From assembly GCA_030141605.1 (NCBI GenBank), contig JAQGDQ010000049.1, positions 124,001 to 188,000 of the forward strand: 64,000 bases of DNA. Direction: 5' to 3'. This DNA comes from Tubiluchus corallicola. Lineage: Eukaryota; Priapulida; Priapulimorpha; Priapulimorphida; Tubiluchidae. The notes under the pieces are model-generated. The model saw nothing but the letters and a program-made list of their open reading frames with translations. It was not told the DNA's origin and did not search any database. This document shows positions 16,036 to 64,000 of this stretch, one piece after another. A program made the translations under genes and the position numbers. Each line of letters opens with the position of its first letter. The stretch's first letter is position 1.

Positions 16036-16878
16036 TAAACTCATCCTTTAAGGTCCTTTAAACGAGTGATGAGGCATTGCTTTCAAAATCCGCCTTTCGC
16101 GTCTCAGTAGGAGATTTGCCTGTAAACACCGAAATGACATACGGTGAACATCAATCAATTTGAAATCAAGGTAGTGCTGCAGACAAGTATTTTTGAGGTC
16201 AAAACCAATGAGTAATAATAATAATGTAATAACTTTTCGAAAAATAAAGAAATGCTTTTTTTCTCGATCTTGTCTCATGTGATGACAGAAGGAATTAGGA
16301 CAGTTTCTTTTGGGCTTCCATGTCAAGGGAATGTGTTTCCTTTTGTGCAGACTTCCCCACGGAATTCTCATCTGTAGTATATATCAACTTTGACATAAAA
16401 AGAGAAAATTGATCAAAGATATGAGCATATCTCTTAAGGTTTCCTTCATTTGTAGTTCACTGTGCATTCCCACCTTCAGAAAGCAGGAAAACTGCGTGAG
16501 ACAAACGTAATAAGTTGTAAAGACTTTAACATGTCAAACTGCGGCTTGTAAACGTCTCATAAGATCTGAAGATCCTTGCTTTGCGTGTGGCGAAAGAGAA
16601 AACAGAAGCATTCTTAATGCACTGAAACACCACAAACTCATCACTTAGGCAATTTATCGCCAATTTGACTGATTTGGAAAAGGTTAAGGTGTCATTTACG
16701 TGCAGCGGTGACAGCAAAATCGCTCGTCTGTGGTGGCTCTACCTTGATTTCAAATTGATTAATGTTTACCACGTCTCATTTGGGTGTTTACATGCAAATC
16801 TCCTACTGAAAACTGAAAGGCGTATTTTGAAAGCAATGGCTCATCATTCATTTAAAGGAACTTAAGGGATGAGTTTTA
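16036..16878. mobile_element. Fold-back element with ~140-bp inverted arms
   Basis: The arms at 16036-16174 and 16739-16878 are inverted copies of each other at roughly 80-85 percent identity by eye, separated by about 560 bp. Both arms give similar peptides in opposite directions (LDFKLI and ERRILKAM), which simply follows from nucleotide similarity. The likely explanation is a non-autonomous transposon with long terminal inverted repeats or an old inverted duplication. No target-site duplication was found. Confidence 0.55.
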
Positions 16879-41533: not shown

Positions 41534-41710
41534 CCGGAATGCGTATGCGTTATGAGGTAGGGAATAGACAAAATCGGTTTATATCGTTTTCAATGCACCC
41601 GTTTAGCAGACCTGCGTTGTTCGTTCTTTTTGTCTGCAGCTATTTCCTATTGATTTTTTATTCCGCAGCTATTCCGCATGTGGATAACGTATAACGCATA
41701 CGCATTCCGG
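41534..41710. mobile_element. MITE with exact 20-bp inverted ends
   Basis: CCGGAATGCGTATGCGTTAT (41534-41553) is repeated exactly in inverse at 41691-41710. Weaker inverse similarity extends outward (TTTAC.TA.CA). A related, more decayed copy lies in a COQ2 intron at 62940-63077. Confidence 0.75.
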
Positions 41711-41959
41711 ATGCTACGTAAACACCACTTTAGTTTTGTATAAAACTATGTATAGCAAACCTTGCTGCTTAGTGTAATCAGAAAACGTTGTAAGTGTTGC
41801 AGCTGAGGGACGGACATTATCGGCATACATTAAGTGGTTGATAATCATGTTTACGCAGCACTTACGTGCATGACAAAGCAATTCTCAAGTTTTTAAAATG
41901 AAAATTAAAAAGAGTTACTATGAGGGAAGAGGAAAAAGACAAAAGACAAATAAAGTAAG

Positions 41960-53363: not shown

Positions 53364-56300
53364 GTATTTGTTCCTACTTTGTAATCAATCTTATCTAGAT
53401 TTTTAAATTTATTTAATTCTATGCTAATATGCAGAATGAGCAATGGAGCAAACCACTTTTGTTTGTCTCATCATTAATGTCACATTCCCGAAAAGACCCT
53501 TGAACTAATTCTAATGTGAATAACTGTAGTACTAGATACAGTAGGTGCCGCTTAATAGACTCACGGTTAATAGACTGAATCGCTTAATTGACTCCAAAAC
53601 GCCTAGAACGGGCTGCTGCTGTCCAAATATACATAAAAACTATCGGAAATTGACTCAAATTACTCCGCATAATAGACTCAATATTTTTCCTTCACGTACT
53701 TAAAATAAGATATCTGTGTGTGCCCAAAGAGCATTTCCTACTTTTATGTCATCCTTACTTCCCTTTTGTGCTTTATATATGTAGAAACAATCATGTTGTT
53801 AAGTACCGTTTTATTTGTAAGCAGGTACGTTTATCATGCGCTAATACGCTAGCATAGTGGTTTTGCTTTGAATCTGTTACCTGCTCGCCCACTGTTGCCC
53901 AAAGAATTTCTGGAAGCTAAACATTTAATCGCTTGCCTAGCGGTTTCCTTTTGATGTGCTCGTTGCAAATCACGCTTTCAGGTTTAATGAGTTAACAGTC
54001 AAAGACACACTTACAGTAATCAGCCGGTATTCCTTGTGACTTAAAGAGTAAACATCGTACAGCAAATAAGAGCAATGTAAGTGAGCAGATTTTCGATGTT
54101 TTTATAATTACGAGAACTTTGTGGGCTAACTTACATAAATTAATATTTTAAAATATTTTTTCTAATTTTTAACTGTGCAAAGGAATTTAGGCATGACTTC
54201 ATTTCTAAAATTCATTAAAATCCTTTGCAGTGCATAGTAAGCTGATGACTCGTACTTCTATACCTGTAATACTACACCCATCGGTTAACACGTTCAGTCT
54301 GTGAATTGGGTCAAAACACGTCGGTCCTAAAATAAGTCTATTAAGTGGCGTCCTACTGTATCTAGATAAGTGTTCTGTACTCTTTAGTCTAAACTAAATG
54401 TTCTTTCTCATCGTTTTTAGTTTTTATCTGCTCTTTTTGGTTTCTTCTGTGCAGTGATGGACAGCATTTTGCAGTTTTATCCATATCTAAATATATTTTC
54501 CTTGTACACTTTAGGTACTTGGTTGCTTTACTGGCCATGTACGTGGAGTATAGGTCTGGCAGCCATGCCGGGACATCTTCCTAACATTTACTTGTTGGCC
54601 TTATTTGGTGCTGGAGCTTTTTTGATGCGAGGTTCCGGTTGCATCATCAATGATTTGTGGGACAAAGAGTATGACAAAAAGGTAAAATAATTAATAGAAT
54701 GCCATTAGTTTGTAATATGAAGCGATGTAATAATTATTACATCATTATTATTATTATTATTATTATTTCCTATGGTTAGTATGTCAATTTGTCTCAAAAG
54801 TCAAACATACCTACCATTTACAACCATTCTGATCCTACTTCATAGAAAACTAATTATAAAAAAGCCTTACTATTTTATGGCAAAAATTACAAAATCAATA
54901 TTTTAAAATGAACCATATTAATGATGTCATTTCTCATGTTTAATTATTTTTGATTTTTTAAGCAATTGTTGTAAAGTATTGTATATACAAGAGAGCTCTC
55001 CTGATACTTGTCATCATTAACAGAGAAAAACGTAATGCCCTTTACAAATACTGAATAAATATTTTAATCTTTGAGAATATAAAAGGCATTACGTTTTTCT
55101 CTGTTGAAGTATCGTATATTTTGAAGAGTGAGCTTTTATATTCTTGTCTAGGTTGAACGTACGAAGCTAAGACCTCTGGCAAGTGGAGAGCTGAACATTT
55201 TTCAAGCTTTATGTTTCCTTGGGTTTAATCTGAGTTTATCCCTTATTATTCTTCTCCAGCTTAATTCATACAGGTATGGCACTTTATAAAAATAAAGATG
55301 CATTTTATAGTGTTGCCTCATACACACATTCGCACAACTTCACAACTTTGTGTCCTGATCATCGGGTATAATTGTTCAGATACAGTTGAATTGCACTTCG
55401 CTGAAACTTGAACTTAACGCCAGATCGAAGAGTCACACGAGAATTAGAGCAAGTTTTACTTTAGAAGCGTTTCTGACTGAAAAACGCAATGGAGTTGAAA
55501 AGAAATTAACATTTTTCATTTTCATTTGCAGGATACCAAAAACATATCGGTAACCAGTGCTATCAGTGTATATAAGTGTTAGAAGGAAAACACTTACAGA
55601 CTTGTATAAAATTCAATAATTTATTTAACAGCCTTACTCCTGATTTCGAAAATCTTTCACCAGGCGTCAGAAATTCTAAGATAAAATTAGTCCAAGTCAG
55701 AAAGCTCAGTGAATAAATAGATCAATTGGTTTTACACAAAAATGCAATCTTGCGATTTTTGCCCAAGAAAGAAGCCCAAAACTGTGGCGTAAATCGTGGA
55801 AAATTATTTAGAACTTTGCATGAACCATTTGCATCCTGTGTGATAAAACACAGTTGCGAGAATTTTTTGGCGACTGTTGGACTTAGAAAAGTCTCAGTTG
55901 TTACAAAAAATGCCATTACCCAGTAAAACCCATGGACAAATGCATTTGAACAAAAACTTATTGAAAAACTTGAAACATTTTCGTATTATTATTATTTTGG
56001 GGGGTTGGTTTAATGCTCTGGTTTAATTAGGATGTTGTTAGCAGATAAGAGATTCATAAAGTCAAGGCAAAAAAGTCTATGATACCACCTTATAGAACAA
56101 GTAATTGTAGAATTTGTTCAGTTGGTTGTGCACGGTGTTATTCACTGGGCACGTGTACATTTACTTGTTCTTTTGCTTTCCATCAGGAACATTGTCATAT
56201 GTACAGTTCAGTATCATAGTTTTGGAGATGCATTTTTCTTCAGGATTGTTTCTTTTTGAAATGCTGCCATTGTTATGTTTTCCTATTGCACTATTGCAGA

Positions 56301-59300
56301 ATTAGTGTTAAGGTTTCTTCCAGCAAGTGACGTATTATCTATTCTGAAAATTTTCAAAAGAAATTATCATATTTGCTATAAGATTATTATTATTTTTTTA
56401 TTATCATCATCATAATCGTAAAAAACAATAAATTTTGCTATTTTACATAAATTACGAAAAAAATAATGCAAAAATTGTTTTGTCAAACTTTCAACGATGG
56501 AGACAACAGTACTTGTTTAATAGTATTTCAAAATGTGCAAATTACAATGAAGTAATTTTTATCATTGCTTTATCGTTTTTCTTTCAGTGTTTTGCTTGGT
56601 GCTAGTTCCTTAGTGCTAGCTGTCTCCTATCCTTTAATGAAGCGTTACACATATTGGCCTCAAGCATATTTAGGTAGGTATGACTTTATGTACTTTTGCA
56701 GTTAATCCACTAATTTTTCAAGAGTTAAAAATAATGCTGTTTTTGGCCTTAGGATGAGTAACACAGCTGAATTGCCTCAGTGCATGTGCTTAACAACCAA
56801 AGTTAAACAGTGCCAAGCCTGGTTAGTAAGTGGCATTAATGACCACCAGCTGTTTACCTGCGTAAGGGGGATATGTGCACAGCTGAATACTGGTTCATTT
56901 TCTAATTTTGTAATGATATGGTTAATGGCGAGCAGGATTCTGGTCCTACCACAACCATCTACATTACATAGATGCTGTTGAGTCCTGGATCCTGGTTTGC
57001 AGAATGCTAAACTGTATAATGGTTAATTATTTTTTACTGAAATTTGATGTTCTTTGATCAGAGCCATCTTCAGGTGTTTTTGCAAATTAATTATTGTAAC
57101 TATCCTTTTTCCAAAAGTCATAATTGAACTTTTAACAGTTTTTGTACTGTAAGATGAACTGCAAAAAACTCATGTAGCTATTAAGCCAATTGGCCCTTTA
57201 ATAAAGAGAAGAAATAATGTTCTTTTGTTTAGTAGTTGATGACTAGGTTATAATCTTCACAGCATTACTGCAATTTTTCTAGAGAAGTTTGTTGACAACA
57301 AGCTAAAACAAGTGACTTACACAAAGATTAGGGCCCTTGTTACAGCTAAAAAACTCTATTTCTTTTGCAAGCATGTTTTATTCGATGTTTTTCATAATTG
57401 TTAACAATATTATGTTGATAAATTGCCAATGTTTTACGTTGACAAACTGTTATGTTGATAATGTATTCCTTTCAATTTTGACGTTATTTTGCTTCTGTGT
57501 CCTTATAGCAAATGATACCATGCTTTTTCGCAGTTAACGTAAGCTTCAGCTTGACAAATAAATCGCAAACTCTTAATTTTCCTATGCGGTTGACAATTGA
57601 CCTGATTCATGAGCTACATGTCTACTGTTATGCCCGGAATTTTGTTATGTGTATTTTCCCATGTTAACTTAGCAAATTATTTTTCTGTCTCTGTATTTTC
57701 AGTTTTTGTTTGCATGTGTCTTTGTGTGTCTTACGTTGGCTTACATACCCACTTTTTTATTCTTGGCAGCACCTAATTTGTATATTTTTTGTCTATACAG
57801 TTGTTAGTCAGAATGTGTTTTACCCTTCATTAATTTCTAAATATCTAAACTAGCTGCTATAATTCTGCATATTTATCTAATTTTTACCAGGTTGGTGCTT
57901 ATATTGTCATTATTTTCACCGATTTAATTAATACTGGTGAAATACATACATCTATGTACTTAGATATCAAATAGTTATCATACATAAAGTTCTTACACGC
58001 AGAATAAGAACAAGCAATAATTTTTAGTTTTAGTGGTCAAAATCGTTGAACAGAAATGTGGAAAGTGACATTTCAGTACAAGTTGTGGAATATGTGTGCC
58101 CTACTGATGATTAGTGGAAGATGCTATAGCATTGAGCATTTGTAATGTTGCTTGCTAAGGGTGTATTATGAGGCATGAAAGTGCTAAGGCCAAGCCTTAT
58201 GTGAATTGTAAAATATAAGAGTGTTTCAGACTCTTTAGAACTAATATCACATATCATAAACTATCATAAGAATCAATTTTCGCAACACTGATTTTTGTTA
58301 CTGAATGCCATCATAATTGGAATTTAATGTATCTGTCCACTACATGGTATTCATTTCATTTCAATACACATTTTTATTTGATTACATGCTGTATTATCAT
58401 ATCATTTTATAAATCCCTACATTATTTTAGTTATGGCAACACTTGAACAAGTTTTACACAGCCATCCAAATTTTGCCAAAATGTAAAGTGTAAGTGCTTA
58501 ACTAAAACCAATAAAACAATCATTGGGATCAACTTTTTCCATATTAATCATAATCATTAATTATAATATGACTGTGAATGCCAAGCATTTCATTTCACAA
58601 CTATTATTACCCCATGCAGATGAGTTGAAAAAAGGAGACGCTGAAAAATTGTCGATTAATCGGGATAGTCGACAATTTTTCAGCGTCTCCTTTTTTCAAC
58701 TCATCTGCATGGGGTAATAATAGTTGTGAAATGTATGATAACAATTCTTTCGAGTAAGTCATTTTTGAAAAAATAACATGTTTCCGTTCAGTATTTTAAA
58801 GAGTAGACTATTCTGGCTTATAGCTTAAGATTGATTTTCCAGTTTTCCTGTAACACATTTATTGAGCATTTGTGAAAGAGGCAACACTTGGTTAGACTGT
58901 ATAGATGTGTAAAAATTTGATTCTTGTAAGCCAGTGACCAATTTGCCTCTCGACTCATTATCAACTTTAATTTGAAACATTTCGTCAGTACTCAGTACCA
59001 TCAAACAAGAAATGAAGTCTTATCTGTCTAGCAATATTTTAGTAATAAGAGGTACCCTTTATTTTAATGTCATCATTTCATATATACATTTGAAAACTAT
59101 TGCTCTGTACTAAAATGTGGTCTAGCCTTACCGTGTATGTTTGTATGGATTTCAGTATTTGTGACTGCAATGCTTAAGATACATCAAATATTTATTCTAA
59201 AAATTGTATGTTTGTACTTGTCTCAAATCTAGATGTTGGGCTAGATGAATGTTTTCAAACCACGTCTTGCCTGGACCCTGGATAAACAAAAACACTAAAA

Positions 59301-62300
59301 TATAAAAACCTGTTATATCAACACTAGGACAAGCATTGTTTGAGCTGCATGTTCAATAATCCCCATATTCCAAATGGATATTATATAATTGTGTATTATA
59401 CTGTCGTATCTTTTTGGCTACAAGTAAGAAAATGATTTAAAAAAACCGTGCTGTTCATTTGGAATAACATAATATCTTGAATATCTTGACTTAATATGTA
59501 CCTGATGTTTAAGTTAGTTTTACAAAGAGTATAAATGTTTGAATGCCGTCTGTTATGATTCTGTTCCAACAGATGTCACTGAAACATAGAACATTATAAA
59601 GTGCCTATATTACATACGCAAACACACACACACACACGTGTACTCTATAGACAGCTAGAGAAGACATGAATGTTTGTTGTATTACAGAAGTGCCATGCTA
59701 TATTGTCATCTGTATTAGTATAAGAGAATAAATATGTTTAATCTTTCCACACTCCTCCCCCGTACAGGTGCTACACTAAACTGGGGAGTGCTCCTGGGTT
59801 GGTCAGCATGCCAAGGTTCCATTGACACGGTTACACCTCTTCTGGTGTACGCTTCCTGTGTCAGCTGGACAATGATATATGATACCATATATTCCCACCA
59901 GGTGAGGCATGATCTAGATACCTGTAAATTGTGACGTGTTGTACTTATACTGCCTCTAAAAATCTGTTGTTGAATGTCCTCTTGCACTCTTAGAAGTAGA
60001 GCATGTATAACTTTTGCACAATAACTTGCTCTGTAACTCACCACAACACAAATCATAAATCACAATAATCAGTGAAATTAAACAGTGTCACATTCTCTTG
60101 AATGCGTGCTTAAACTACTTTTTAGAAAATGTTTTTTTAATAATGCTCTGTGTAGCTAATGATATATTTATTTGCTTATTAGAAGTAATTTGACGTGATG
60201 CATGCTATAATGTATCGTAGGGTGCTTAATTGGAATGGCAAATGTGGCTTCCTGATCATATGTTTTTAAATCTAGTAAAACTGTGTATATTTCATGTAGC
60301 CATATGCAGTTCTCAGTAGTGTGTACAATATTCAACACTTGCCAGAGCCAGAAAGACAGTTTTTCAAAAATAGTTTTTTCCGATCCACAGAAAATTAGAT
60401 TGTACATGAACTTCTAATTAAACTTGCTCAGGCTGTAATTTAAAATTGCTGTTGCATTTTCAAGGATTTTGATCATTTGTTAAATGACGGTTTCACTCAA
60501 AATTTTGAAAAGTGAAAGCTTAATGCGGGACTTTGAAAATAATACTTCCGTTGCTCTTTGTCTCATTTCCTGTCATTACTGCCTGCTATAGTGCTTAATT
60601 GCTCATCTCTTTTTACCATTTTCTATTTTATAATAACCGTAAATGAGTTTGACATTCAACATTTATCAGATCCTTAAGGGATTTATGTAGTCTGACTATT
60701 ACAAAGGCTATTTTTGGTCTGCTTTATAAAGCTAATAAACATGAGAAAATCTCGTAAATGGGACGTCTTGATGTTTTAGGCGACACACTAGCTGTTATTT
60801 AAGTAATTAGCGTGAAATAACATTAATGGGTAGTTAGCATGATTATTGTTTGTTTGCATCAATCTCTATTTGCTTCCTTTGTTTGCTTATTTATTTGTTT
60901 CTTTTGGTTTGTTTGTATGTTTCTGTCCTTGTATGTCTCAGTTTGTTTGTTTGTATATTTGTTTGTTTGGTTAGTCATTCATCAATTCATTTGTTTATTT
61001 ATTTAAATTCAATTTTCCTTCTATCTTTCTATTTTTTATTAACTTAAATACAAGCTCTTTGTTTATTCAGTGTTTCTGTTAGCATATAGTTTAGTCTATT
61101 GATGCTAGAATGATAATTATTTAATTTTAATTGTGCTATTATGGCAAGTACATATAAATATTGTACTACATTTTGGCCAGGGACTTTATTTTTAATTTAA
61201 CAGTGTAACAAAGTCGATATTACAAATTCTTTAAATTCATTCATTTTTATACATTAGTTATGACCATGTTGCATGTTTGTTGTGCATGCTCTTGTGCAGG
61301 TGGCTGGTTTTGTTGCCTGTCTTTGCATTGCCGTGTAACTGTAATGTAGACGTAACTTACTCGCTTTTAAATTATGGTATTCCTAGGCGCGAGAAACAAG
61401 CAAAGTAACATGACAGTATTGAAATCAGGTCAATCGTCAAATCATCCTGCATTTGGTTAAATGAAGTATCTTTTACTTACAATTAGTTTTCAATTTTTTC
61501 GCATTTTCAAATAATATTCAATACTTTGCCAATTAATGTAATGGGTAAAAGAGTTGATGCCTTGGTTATTTTCGCTCTATGTTACACTTTTTGTCTGTAA
61601 ATTTTTTGATACTTCATTTACAACATTGAAATCCAGTGGTTCTGGGTTCGAGTCCCACTTGTGTCGATTCTTTCAAATTGATCTACTACTCTGGTTACCT
61701 TTCACAGCTTATTCAGCCTTAATTATGTACTTCTGGCTGTCCTGGACCAAGCGATAGGCTAACCATCTGTTTTCCTCGTGTGTGGCTAAGACTTCATGTT
61801 TAAATGCTGCATCCATCTGTTCTTTGATAAGGGCATGGCATCATTGTTCTTCTTCTTTTACTATCATGTTACAATTTGGCAGTTGCTTTCTTCCAGTCTC
61901 ATTTGGGCTGAGGAGATAAAAGGTGTACTTAGCTGCGATACTTGAGCAGTGCTGAGCTTAGTTAGTACTTGGCAAATGGATGTGTGATTGGTGGAAGACA
62001 GCTTCCATCATTTTGCTTTCAGCTTTTCTTGAAGCACCTCATTTAATTCGGTATCTCATATTGGAGGATTAATCTTTGTAATAAGGTTCCTGTATCGCAC
62101 AATGATTCATCCTTTTTCATAGGCCCTGCCTTTGAGCACTTTGTTCCAGATTGTAGTGAAGCAAAAAACGCATGTATGTTATTTAAAGTAGCCTATTTTA
62201 CCAAATTTCTGTTCTTTAGAATAATCAGTAACTTTGCAGAAATTAATTAGACATTTGACTATAGCATTTCATATTTTCAATTTCATCATTTTTGCTTTTA

Positions 62301-63776
62301 GCAGGGCAAGAAAAGTACCTGTTTAACTAAATTTTATGTTTTGCTTGTTTCTCGCGCAGGGCTCACATTTAACTTTGGTGCACTCTTGGGATGGGTTGCT
62401 GTGAAAGGTTCCCCTGATCTGTCTGTGGTTCTCCCCCTTTATGCAGGATGCTTTGCATGGACTATCATTTATGACACGATATATGCACATCAGGTATGAA
62501 CGTGCTTTAACAAGGGGCATCTTTTCTTCGACAGTCAAATCTGTTTAATGACACAGATTGCTTAACTCTTCTTTTGACTAATATCTGACTTCACCTCACT
62601 CCTACTAGTATACTGTGCACTCATATTAATTTCAACTGTTAGATAACAGTCTCCAAAAAAAGTGTTAAACGGGAATGACTATATTTAAACTTGTGTTTTA
62701 ATGATATTTTTGCTGTTTGTGAGTACGTATATTCTAAAAATTATTTGTATTTAATTTAAGTTTTAAAATTTAGAAGAATAAATGACCATTGCTTGTGTTT
62801 TCTGTGTTTATCATTCCACTATATTTGACGTAAAGAAAGCTTCCTAAGATTAGGACTGATAGGACTGAAGTTGTTCCAAGCTTCTATTAACCAGAACTTT
62901 TCTAACACTGTATTGCTGTTTTCTTGTATGGTTTTGGGTATGCGGAATAGATAAAATTGGTTTATATCGTTTTCAGTGCACTCATTTATGCACGCACCCG
63001 CGTGTGCATTTATCTTTTCTGCAGCTGCGCCTCAGGTGGAAACGCATATGCATCCCGATGCTATGTAAACACCACTTATATTTCAAACATAAATGTGTTT
63101 AACAATGAACTTAATGCATGAATCGTAGATTTTGCAACTAAACATGTTCTAAAGAAAGGAAATTGTGAAAAAGTCACGCAACAGTTTGTATTTGAACCTG
63201 GGCCCTTTTACTTAAGTTTCAAGCACGTTTGAGCAAGATTAGTTTCAGAATTTAGGAATTGTATGTTTAAGCCAGCATAATAGTAATCCTAAAAGTAAGA
63301 TTATCAATAAGTAATAATTATCTTTATTTGGATAACGGTATTGTACCCAATTGCAGTGCTTGTAATTAATTGTAAACAGTAAAATAACATTCTTGCAATT
63401 TCTTTGCATCAATTTAGAATGTTTGAACTGGTAGCTATGTGCATATAAATGTTGTTACATAAATGTACAAACAAAATTGATTCTCGGCTTCTACTATAAT
63501 TTGAATCTTCCTGCTCAGTAGTATTGTGTAGTAATATTTTTTATCATCGCTTTCTATCCCATTTTAAACACCATTTTGGTTTTGTAGGACAAAGACGATG
63601 ACATGGTAATAGGTGTGAAATCTACAGCACTGCTTTTCAGAGACAATACAAAGAAGTGGTTATCCGGTTTCGGATGCATGATGATTGGTGGACTAGGAGC
63701 AGCGGGATACGCTGCTGGACAAACATGGCCATATTATGCAGGGCTTGCACTGACAGCAGCACATATTGCCAATCAG
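52847..63776 (+). CDS. COQ2: COQ2, 4-hydroxybenzoate polyprenyltransferase (spliced; 3' end beyond window)
   Basis: A UbiA-family integral membrane enzyme of the inner mitochondrial membrane. It joins a polyprenyl diphosphate tail to the aromatic ring precursor of ubiquinone (or rhodoquinone). Exons, with phases that all fit: 52847-53363, 54515-54681, 55152-55273, 56588-56673, then either 59768-59901 or 62360-62493, then 63588-63776. All introns are GT-AG. The first Asp-rich motif (NDLWDKEYD) is in exon 2 and reaches LRPLASGE in exon 3. [13 protein letters not shown] is in exon 4. The second motif (YDTIY.HQDKDDD) spans the alternative exon and exon 6, which continues with [11 protein letters not shown] and [10 protein letters not shown]. 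Exon 1 encodes a long Ser/Arg-rich N-terminus fit for mitochondrial import. The final part (the IYTLDI region in relatives) is not in the window. Confidence 0.95.
53539..54358. mobile_element. Tigger/pogo-like MITE in COQ2 intron 1
   Basis: The left end CAGTAGGTGCCGCTTAATAG and the inverse of the right end CAGTAGGACGCCACTTAATA form terminal inverted repeats. TA dinucleotides at both borders (53537-53538, 54359-54360) match the mariner/pogo target duplication. The subterminal region repeats CTTAATAGACT-like words, as Tigger elements do. 820 bp, no transposase frame. Confidence 0.8.
54515..54681 (+). CDS. COQ2: COQ2 exon 2
   Basis: Begins after CACTTTAG, completes the Gly codon, and encodes [14 protein letters not shown], a membrane helix, and [18 protein letters not shown] with the first Asp-rich motif that binds magnesium and diphosphate. 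Donor GTAAAA at 54682. Confidence 0.95.
55019..55105. repeat. Hairpin element in COQ2 intron 2
   Basis: Exact 21-bp inverted arms (55019-55039 and 55085-55105, AACAGAGAAAAACGTAATGCC) around 45 bp; probably a tiny MITE. Confidence 0.85.
55152..55273 (+). CDS. COQ2: COQ2 exon 3
   Basis: Encodes [20 protein letters not shown], the conserved RPLASG loop after the first Asp-rich motif, then a membrane helix. It ends in phase 2 at CAG|GTATGG. Confidence 0.95.
55274..56587 (+). other. COQ2 intron 3
   Basis: AT-rich; the frames at 55722-55926 and 56114-56305 have no domain. No element with defined ends seen. Confidence 0.7.
56588..56673 (+). CDS. COQ2: COQ2 exon 4
   Basis: After CTTTCAG it encodes [20 protein letters not shown] then YTYWPQAYL, with its last base opening the Gly codon that either alternative exon completes. 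Donor GTAGGT at 56674. Confidence 0.95.
56754..56860 (+). mobile_element. SINE-like fragment with 5S rRNA-like segment (COQ2 intron 4)
   Basis: AGTTAAACAGTGCCAAGCCT then GGTTAGTA resembles 5S rRNA AGCTAAGCAGGGTCGGGCCT then GGTTAGTA. Likely a 5S-derived (SINE3/Deu-type) head; too diverged to be a 5S gene. Confidence 0.5.
58591..58733. repeat. Perfect 65-bp hairpin in COQ2 intron 4
   Basis: Arms 58591-58655 and 58669-58733 are exact inverse complements over 65 bp, around a 13-bp loop (TTAATCGGGATAG). It lies 1.03 kb upstream of exon 5A. The perfect match suggests recent origin or continuing correction. Confidence 0.97.
58737..58855 (+). repeat. Dispersed repeat, copy 2 (next to the hairpin)
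   Basis: Similar to 40835-40945 (see that entry). It begins immediately after the 65-bp hairpin; the first copy lacks any such hairpin. Confidence 0.55.
59622..59640. repeat. (CA)n tract near exon 5A
   Basis: A short ACACACAC run about 130 bp upstream of the exon 5A acceptor. CA repeats can bind hnRNP L-type splicing factors (known of the class; not shown here). Confidence 0.6.
59768..59901 (+). CDS. COQ2: COQ2 alternative exon 5A (rhodoquinone-type)
   Basis: 134 nt, phase 1 in and phase 0 out, acceptor CCCCCGTACAG and donor GTGAGG. Encodes (G)[16 protein letters not shown] through [13 protein letters not shown]. Relative to ordinary COQ2, the Phe of LTFN is Leu, and the Ala of IYAHQ, next to the second Asp-rich motif, is Ser. 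These two changes, 39 residues apart, match those reported for the rhodoquinone-type exon of nematode coq-2 (Phe204Leu and Ala243Ser, from memory). The product is expected to accept an amino-bearing ring precursor and lead to rhodoquinone. Confidence 0.9.
60850..60975. repeat. (TTTG)n-like low-complexity tract
   Basis: Imperfect TTTG and TGTT units. Confidence 0.7.
61387..61404 (+). promoter_or_regulatory. Candidate RNA selector element complementary to the exon 5B splice acceptor
   Basis: GCGCGAGAAACAAGCAAA is the exact reverse complement of 62340-62357, which is the polypyrimidine tract of exon 5B up to the base before its AG. As RNA the helix can extend by two G-U pairs and one A-U pair to 21 pairs, with a 935-nt loop. 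Flanking sequences do not match, so this is not simply an inverted transposon copy. The role in splice choice is inferred. Confidence 0.6.
61632..61665 (+). mobile_element. tRNA-like SINE remnant
   Basis: GGGTTCGAGTCCC (61644-61656) is a canonical pol III B box; no clear A box remains. Confidence 0.4.
61932..61978 (+). mobile_element. 5S-like SINE fragment
   Basis: GAGCAGTGCTGAGCTTAGTT then AGTACTTGG resembles the 5S rRNA segment AAGCAGGGTCGGGCCTGGTT then AGTACTTGG. Confidence 0.45.
62340..62359 (+). promoter_or_regulatory. Exon 5B polypyrimidine tract and 3' splice site
   Basis: TTTGCTTGTTTCTCGCGCAG, with a TTAACTAA branch-site-like word about 35 nt upstream of the AG. The CGCGC just before the AG is unusual for this AT-rich genome and is part of the complementarity with 61387-61404. 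Confidence 0.85.
62360..62493 (+). CDS. COQ2: COQ2 alternative exon 5B (ubiquinone-type)
   Basis: 134 nt with the same phases as 5A. Encodes (G)[17 protein letters not shown] through [13 protein letters not shown], with the ancestral Phe and Ala. It also has Phe where most relatives (and 5A) have Trp in LTFNWG. Splicing both exons in a row gives TGA at 62402-62404; skipping both gives TGA five codons into exon 6. So the exons are mutually exclusive by frame. Confidence 0.93.
62494..63587 (+). other. COQ2 intron before exon 6
   Basis: Includes 62940-63077, a decayed relative of the MITE at 41534-41710 (shared GGAATAGA.AAAAT.GGTTTA then TATCGTTTTCA, and GATGCTA.GTAAACACCACTT). Confidence 0.7.
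62940..63077. mobile_element. Relative of the 41534 MITE family
   Basis: See the preceding intron entry; inverted ends are largely lost in this copy. Confidence 0.55.
63588..63776 (+). CDS. COQ2: COQ2 exon 6
   Basis: 63 codons after [25 protein letters not shown], then two helices including [25 protein letters not shown] completes the second Asp-rich motif begun at the end of exon 5A or 5B. Donor GTAAAT at 63777; following exon(s) are outside the window. Confidence 0.95.
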
Positions 63777-64000
63777 GTAAATAAGTCTTTTCACGATTTC
63801 GTTGTGCACATGCGCAATTGCTGTAGGTCAAAGGTTAACTGACCCCAATCAACGTATCTTAACTACAACTGTCACATAACTTAACTACAACTGTCAGATG
63901 TCATGTGGATAAAGCAAAGCTGTCTGCTGCATTATTTCAGTAACGTCAGTTGTTTTACATGGTTTTTACTTAATTATGCATTTGTCTGCACATAGAGTGA

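Follow-up and report, generated by a model that had tools for sequence, protein, structure and literature searches.

Whether an animal makes ubiquinone or rhodoquinone is decided by the choice between two exons, a and e, of the COQ2 gene. The a exon carries a Phe and an Ala, and the e exon, which is required for rhodoquinone, carries a Leu and a Ser (PMC7434440, Tan et al., 2020). Could this choice be influenced by the folding of the pre-mRNA itself? The question is raised by a COQ2 gene in the window (the whole 64-kb stretch of DNA analysed here), in which the splice acceptor of one of the two exons is perfectly complementary to a segment of the intron that separates them. The exons concerned are:

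55152 to 55273, + strand: upstream COQ2 exon, with a control acceptor AG at 55150-55151
56588 to 56673, + strand: COQ2 exon spliced to 5A or to 5B
59768 to 59901, + strand: exon 5A, 134 nt, e-form (rhodoquinone) by its Leu and Ser markers (PMC7434440)
62360 to 62493, + strand: exon 5B, 134 nt, a-form (ubiquinone) by its Phe and Ala markers (PMC7434440)
63588 to 63777, + strand: COQ2 exon 3' of the 5A/5B pair

The gene belongs to the UbiA family and carries the tandem 134-nt exons of a COQ2 a/e pair. Joined in frame with either 5A or 5B, the spliced product matches PF01040, the UbiA-family prenyltransferase domain (E ~1e-54). Frame analysis of the predicted transcripts gives a premature stop when 5A and 5B are included together, and also when neither is. 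The marker motifs are ATLN and IYSHQ in 5A, LTFN and IYAHQ in 5B. By these residues, Leu and Ser in the one and Phe and Ala in the other, 5A is assigned to rhodoquinone and 5B to ubiquinone, in agreement with the identities first given to them. Gene, 134-nt exons and marker residues are the same as in the COQ-2 a/e switch (PMC7434440), for which cis-acting RNA control of exon choice is not proposed in sections 6, 8 and 9 of that paper; a C. elegans legend there names exon 6e ahead of 6a. In annelids, as far as the relevant passage of PMC12403961 goes, the second marker residue follows no clear pattern. Scored with generic matrices, the acceptors of 5A and 5B reach 8.76 and 8.68. The donors score 8.75 for 5A (at 59902) and 4.51 for 5B (at 62494), which is a second asymmetry at this locus, in favour of 5A.

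The complementary segments and the signals around them are arranged as follows:

61387 to 61404, + strand: arm in the intron, GCGCGAGAAACAAGCAAA, perfectly complementary to the polypyrimidine tract of 5B
61405 to 61407, + strand: three extra pairs (G-U, U-G, A-U) on the inner side, giving a 21-pair helix
62323 to 62327, + strand: candidate branch site TTAAC, unpaired, on the loop side
62337 to 62339, + strand: partner of the three-pair extension
62340 to 62357, + strand: 5B polypyrimidine tract TTTGCTTGTTTCTCGCGC, second arm of the helix; among the AGs of the window, its acceptor scores at the 99.9th percentile (generic matrix)
62358 to 62359, + strand: acceptor AG of exon 5B, immediately beyond the perfect helix

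The segment at 61387-61404 is the exact reverse complement of 62340-62357. The coordinates and the 18 perfect pairs of the original prediction are exact, as is its extension to 21 pairs by two G-U pairs and one A-U pair, and its placement on the 5B tract just ahead of the AG holds, the 3' arm ending at 62357 and adjoining the AG at 62358-62359. The loop between the arms is 935 nt. The TTAAC at 62323-62327 is presumably the branch site, judged from the consensus; the helix then spans the tract from 11-14 nt past this likely branch site to the AG. Allowing up to three mismatches, the arm pattern is found at only these two places in the 64-kb window, shuffles leading to an expectation of 0.09.

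Is such a match over a splice signal more than background? The initial estimate, 4 in 100 million, holds arithmetically when a single, fixed site is considered in random sequence, yet this is the wrong reference class. Acceptor-like sites of the same genome were used as the comparison. They were defined on both strands as a YAG whose last 18 nt include 12 or more pyrimidines, and each was scored by the longest perfect complement that these 18 nt have no more than 2.5 kb away. Of the 1404 sites scored, the window contributes 575 and a sample of 20 stretches, each of 10 kb, the other 829; sites less than 2,520 nt from an end, the real 5B included, were left out, and so were, in the genome sample, an uncounted number whose tract contained N or whose surroundings held more than 500 N. 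A complement of at least 16 nt was reached by six of the 1404 sites, all the others having at most 14 nt. The six are two readings of the palindrome at 58591-58733, the 61387 arm in antisense, and three sites in inverted repeats of at least 301 nt. Isolated matches of 15 nt or more were found at none of the 1403 comparison sites, and the five sites with 17-18 nt are all within long inverted repeats. In the window, at most 12 nt are reached by all but 3 of the 575 sites; among the 829 sites of the genome sample, three have 17-18 nt, one has 14 and four have 13. Exon 5B, scored separately, has a longest perfect complement of 18 nt. Four other COQ2 acceptors have 12, 9, 6 and 6 nt, in a control set that leaves out the first exon in the window (near 54450) and in which exon 63588 has only about 400 nt downstream.

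Duplex energies were compared in the same region. The duplex of 5B with the inter-exon intron has an energy of -38.1 kcal/mol, a value reached by none of 200 shuffles (mean -19.4, sd 2.2). Among 258 windows covering 57.5-63.9 kb, the 5B partner is the strongest beyond 60 nt (-38.5 kcal/mol), the 58.6-kb palindrome excepted. The next strongest regional pairing, of 62125-62165 with the start of 5A, comes close in raw energy, with -36.2 kcal/mol, though it is reached by 5 of 200 shuffles. Complementarity over the splice signal exceeds the background. Rare matches are to be expected when many windows are scanned, which is how this one came to be picked, but the tail of the site counts mostly falls two- to fourfold per base from 9 nt onwards and ends at 14 nt for isolated matches; a match of 18 nt is far outside that tail, and pure chance appears extremely improbable. 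Each arm carries two CpGs, in an intron so poor in them that only 13 of its 2404 18-mers have at least two. For this reason the arms are probably either young or held by selection, and hardly old and neutral.

Several other elements are present in the window. The stretch 58455-58903 is a repeat with a 65-nt perfect palindromic core, and its relatives (78-85% identical over 52-105 nt) account for six matches in 4 of the 20 sampled genome stretches. A partial copy (80-89% identical) of an inverted-repeat element at 41.5 kb (41534-41730) lies at 62944-63077, in the intron after 5B, and an element with terminal inverted repeats of about 206 nt, 79% matching, occupies 16037-16876. In the loop, 61630-61665 contains GGTTCGAGTCC, which we take to be a tRNA-like B-box, perhaps a SINE remnant; ARAGORN reported no tRNA. 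An Rfam search of 54000-64000 with E up to 1 gave eight matches, all below the gathering scores and none on the arms. Comparative searches found four bacterial loci in a bacterial/archaeal set and none in a viral set, and are uninformative for animal relatives.

How far the two arms are predicted to pair depends on the RNA that is folded with them. The 18-pair core has a duplex energy of -30.4 kcal/mol and the 21-pair duplex -31.5. According to partition-function calculations, the arm pairing probability is 0.98 for 61200-62420 and also for 61000-62360, which corresponds to a nascent end. It is 0.74 for 61000-62500, about 0.75 for 59902-62600, 0.40 for 60900-62600, where the minimum-energy fold lacks the helix, and 0.05 for 60500-62500. 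In this last context, the arm pairs instead with an upstream tract:

60840 to 60980, + strand: U/G-rich tract, rival partner of the arm in one folded context (probability 0.47)

When equal contexts are compared, the 5B tract is paired with probabilities of 0.99 and 0.74, and the four other COQ2 acceptors with 0.53-0.67. Folds at the kilobase scale are rough, and in these models the helix is the leading, not a certain, state. Folding of the pre-mRNA, proposed as a check from the outset, accordingly returned a strong duplex covering the tract together with an occupancy anywhere between 0.05 and 0.98, depending on the stretch chosen.

The reading that we tentatively prefer, at a little under an even chance, is that this long-range helix masks the acceptor of the a exon and favours the e exon, and so influences exon choice. 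It is modelled on a comparison basis of one genome. The pre-mRNA would fold over the 935-nt loop, with the arm at 61387-61404 covering the 5B polypyrimidine tract. Once double-stranded, the tract would keep U2AF off, and 5B, the ubiquinone exon, would be skipped. Transcripts would join 5A instead, the splice sites of which are strong, and would code for the form of the enzyme that makes rhodoquinone. Transcription reaches the arm ahead of the acceptor, and the arm may capture the tract emerging from the polymerase, in a race against U2AF. Release of 5B could occur when the helix is weakened by a bound protein, by a rival pairing of the arm with the upstream U/G-rich sequence, or by transcription timing. 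If the helix forms in cells, use of 5B would be lowered in this manner.

Masking is favoured by the position of the perfect 18-nt match, flanked by the likely branch site on one side and the AG on the other. Against it, long loops are reported from older minigene work to have been poor at masking splice sites in living cells. The reading is weakened by the dependence of the fold on its context (0.05-0.98), and also because a permanent mask on the essential ubiquinone exon would be costly unless released. It is further weakened by the human catalogue, which shows a depletion of complementary regions near splice sites in active use (PMC8052449). A more elaborate version, which we find rather unlikely, would make of the single helix a sensor, elongation speed, temperature or an RNA-binding protein setting the ubiquinone:rhodoquinone ratio via RNA folding; it rests on the arm being made about 950 nt before the acceptor, so that the outcome of helix versus U2AF would vary with the state of the cell.

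The masking helix has to be weighed against a passive origin of the arms, which is a serious possibility and nearly as likely. The arms would be either the short terminal repeats of a mobile element of about 971 bp or a local inverted duplication, in both cases recent and with no role in exon choice. Inverted-repeat elements are indeed common in the window and present in the COQ2 gene too, and the perfect identity of the arms and their intact CpGs are compatible with a recent origin. The original prediction had dismissed a plain inverted repeat of a transposon, on the ground that neighbouring bases do not match. It is true that the extension of the arms past 18 nt is not clearly beyond chance, but a gapped alignment reaches 64 nt with 47 matches, like those of the repeats at 55 kb (60 nt, 45 matches) and 41 kb (74 nt, 53 matches). 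Moreover, the dismissal is not conclusive, since a short inverted repeat at the ends of an element may well have no extension; the 41-kb repeat does not extend clearly beyond chance either (0.13), and this feature does not discriminate. A longer, bulged inverted repeat of -38 to -39 kcal/mol was considered and rejected, its flanks giving p=0.046, 0.28 and 0.20 under three nulls, the last of which uses real genomic flanks. On inspection, the outermost GCGC is palindromic and an AG stands outside each arm, which would allow a short target-site duplication, though no clear one was seen around the arms. Against a mobile element, neither the 64-kb window nor the roughly 176 kb of genome sampled yielded a further copy of 61387-62357. 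This sample is small and missed the 41-kb family: the seven queries run against it had matches for the 58-kb palindrome family alone (six, in four stretches). An element inserted exactly at an older acceptor was also discarded, the AG to the left of the arm being a poor candidate for one (78.6th percentile). Finally, with a passive origin the match would fall on the acceptor by accident.

Two further explanations keep the helix and give it another function. One of them involves a candidate regulator site:

61270 to 61288, + strand: RBFOX-type motif UGCAUG in two copies (61270, 61283), some 100 nt upstream of the arm

UGCAUG is the RBFOX motif (PMC12435732), and the helix could act mainly as an RNA bridge bringing this pair to the 5B acceptor, where an RBFOX-type protein would repress or activate 5B. 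ENAH is a published precedent (PMC8052449, PMC10790352). The motifs at 61270 and 61283 are the sole UGCAUG pair at most 30 nt apart in the window, and between 54400 and 64000 the hexamer occurs 11 times in sense and once in antisense, as against 13 and 14 times in the rest of the window, ranking third of 4096 hexamers by enrichment. The enrichment was noticed post hoc, however, and its p value of 5.6e-5 fails correction over the 4096 hexamers. With the motifs held single-stranded, the helix becomes more probable in two of five contexts (0.40 to 0.63 and 0.74 to 0.94), but its probability changes little or not at all in the other three (0.98 to 0.98 twice, 0.05 to 0.07), and a bridging helix would cover the tract all the same. 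The alternative in which the arm is a docking site shared by the selectors of 5A and 5B, as in the competition at Dscam exon 6, appears quite improbable, and the bridge slightly less probable still. Two tandem exons of equal length are the usual setting of docking systems, and a second long-range pairing, of 59765-59805 at the start of 5A with 62120-62165, would be pseudoknotted with the 5B helix. It is a 5A candidate for a bidirectional pseudoknot of the srp type. However, the pairing is weak: the 5 of 200 shuffles that reach it are counted before correction for the sites tried, and we retain it as a weak lead at most. The arm itself has no 5A partner. None of its best eight partners is near 5A, the best one after 5B being at 61250 with -19.9 kcal/mol, and the longest perfect complement of the 5A acceptor is 6 nt. 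The analogy drawn with Dscam is therefore only partial: RNA pairing at tandem exclusive exons is common to both, but no second selector competes for the arm.

Three other arrangements around the arm were tried and set aside. One was a switch in which the arm would pair with the UGCAUG segment; that pairing has -19.9 kcal/mol and a probability of at most 0.07, and its energy is reached in 5 of 400 shuffles when the 290 nt before the arm are shuffled, and in 32 of 400 when the whole upstream intron is. A helix of 59700-59740 with 61270-61310 (-28.8 kcal/mol) is reached by none of 60 query shuffles; yet it ranks 77th of the 258 windows (-25.1 kcal/mol on that coarser grid), and even -28.8 kcal/mol would rank only about 24th. 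A decoy exon ending at the arm would use the donor-like GT at 61405, which scores -1.55 (83.5th percentile). The best acceptor-like AG between 60000 and 62340 is at 61298, right after the UGCAUG pair, and is a possible decoy acceptor.

Helices that block splice sites are themselves already known; what would be new here is the masking of one acceptor in a two-exon switch. The seven validated human helices listed in Table 1 of PMC8052449 are 11-20 nt long, with energies of -15.8 to -35.9 kcal/mol and arms 51 to 9431 nt apart. In the same catalogue, complementary regions are described as not substantially depleted in polypyrimidine tracts, and 43.2% of those lying on a tract block the acceptor too (PMC8052449). 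The closest likeness is with human ATE1, where exons 7a and 7b are exclusive as in COQ2 and the validated helix has -35.9 kcal/mol over 952 nt (PMC8052449); beside it, the COQ2 helix, at about -30 kcal/mol for its 18-nt core and 935 nt, is predicted only. ATE1 also has competing elements, R1 and R4 versus R3 (PMC11802352), whereas no competitor was found on the 5A side of COQ2. In Drosophila CG33298 and Gug, distant complementary segments form bridges and block splice sites, as proposed here (PMC10790352). Those helices were found as conserved complementary boxes (PMC4174434), and the COQ2 case concerns an exclusive exon pair in a single genome. In Dscam, 14-3-3 zeta, Mhc and MRP1, pairing decides between tandem exons (PMC6071210). 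Unlike these genes, COQ2 has no selector for the other exon, and the pairing covers an acceptor rather than exposing an exon or bringing it closer. The statement that no RNA-pairing control was known for COQ2 stands as far as the open-licence literature goes: among the matches listed there, we found neither such control nor any cis-acting control of the a/e choice.

With a defined pair of 18-nt segments, the question of how the a or the e exon is chosen becomes experimentally addressable, and the outcome to be expected is clear. Should the pairing prove conserved, a metabolic enzyme would join those genes in which RNA folding settles the choice of exclusive exons, here through masking of one acceptor and not through competing selectors.
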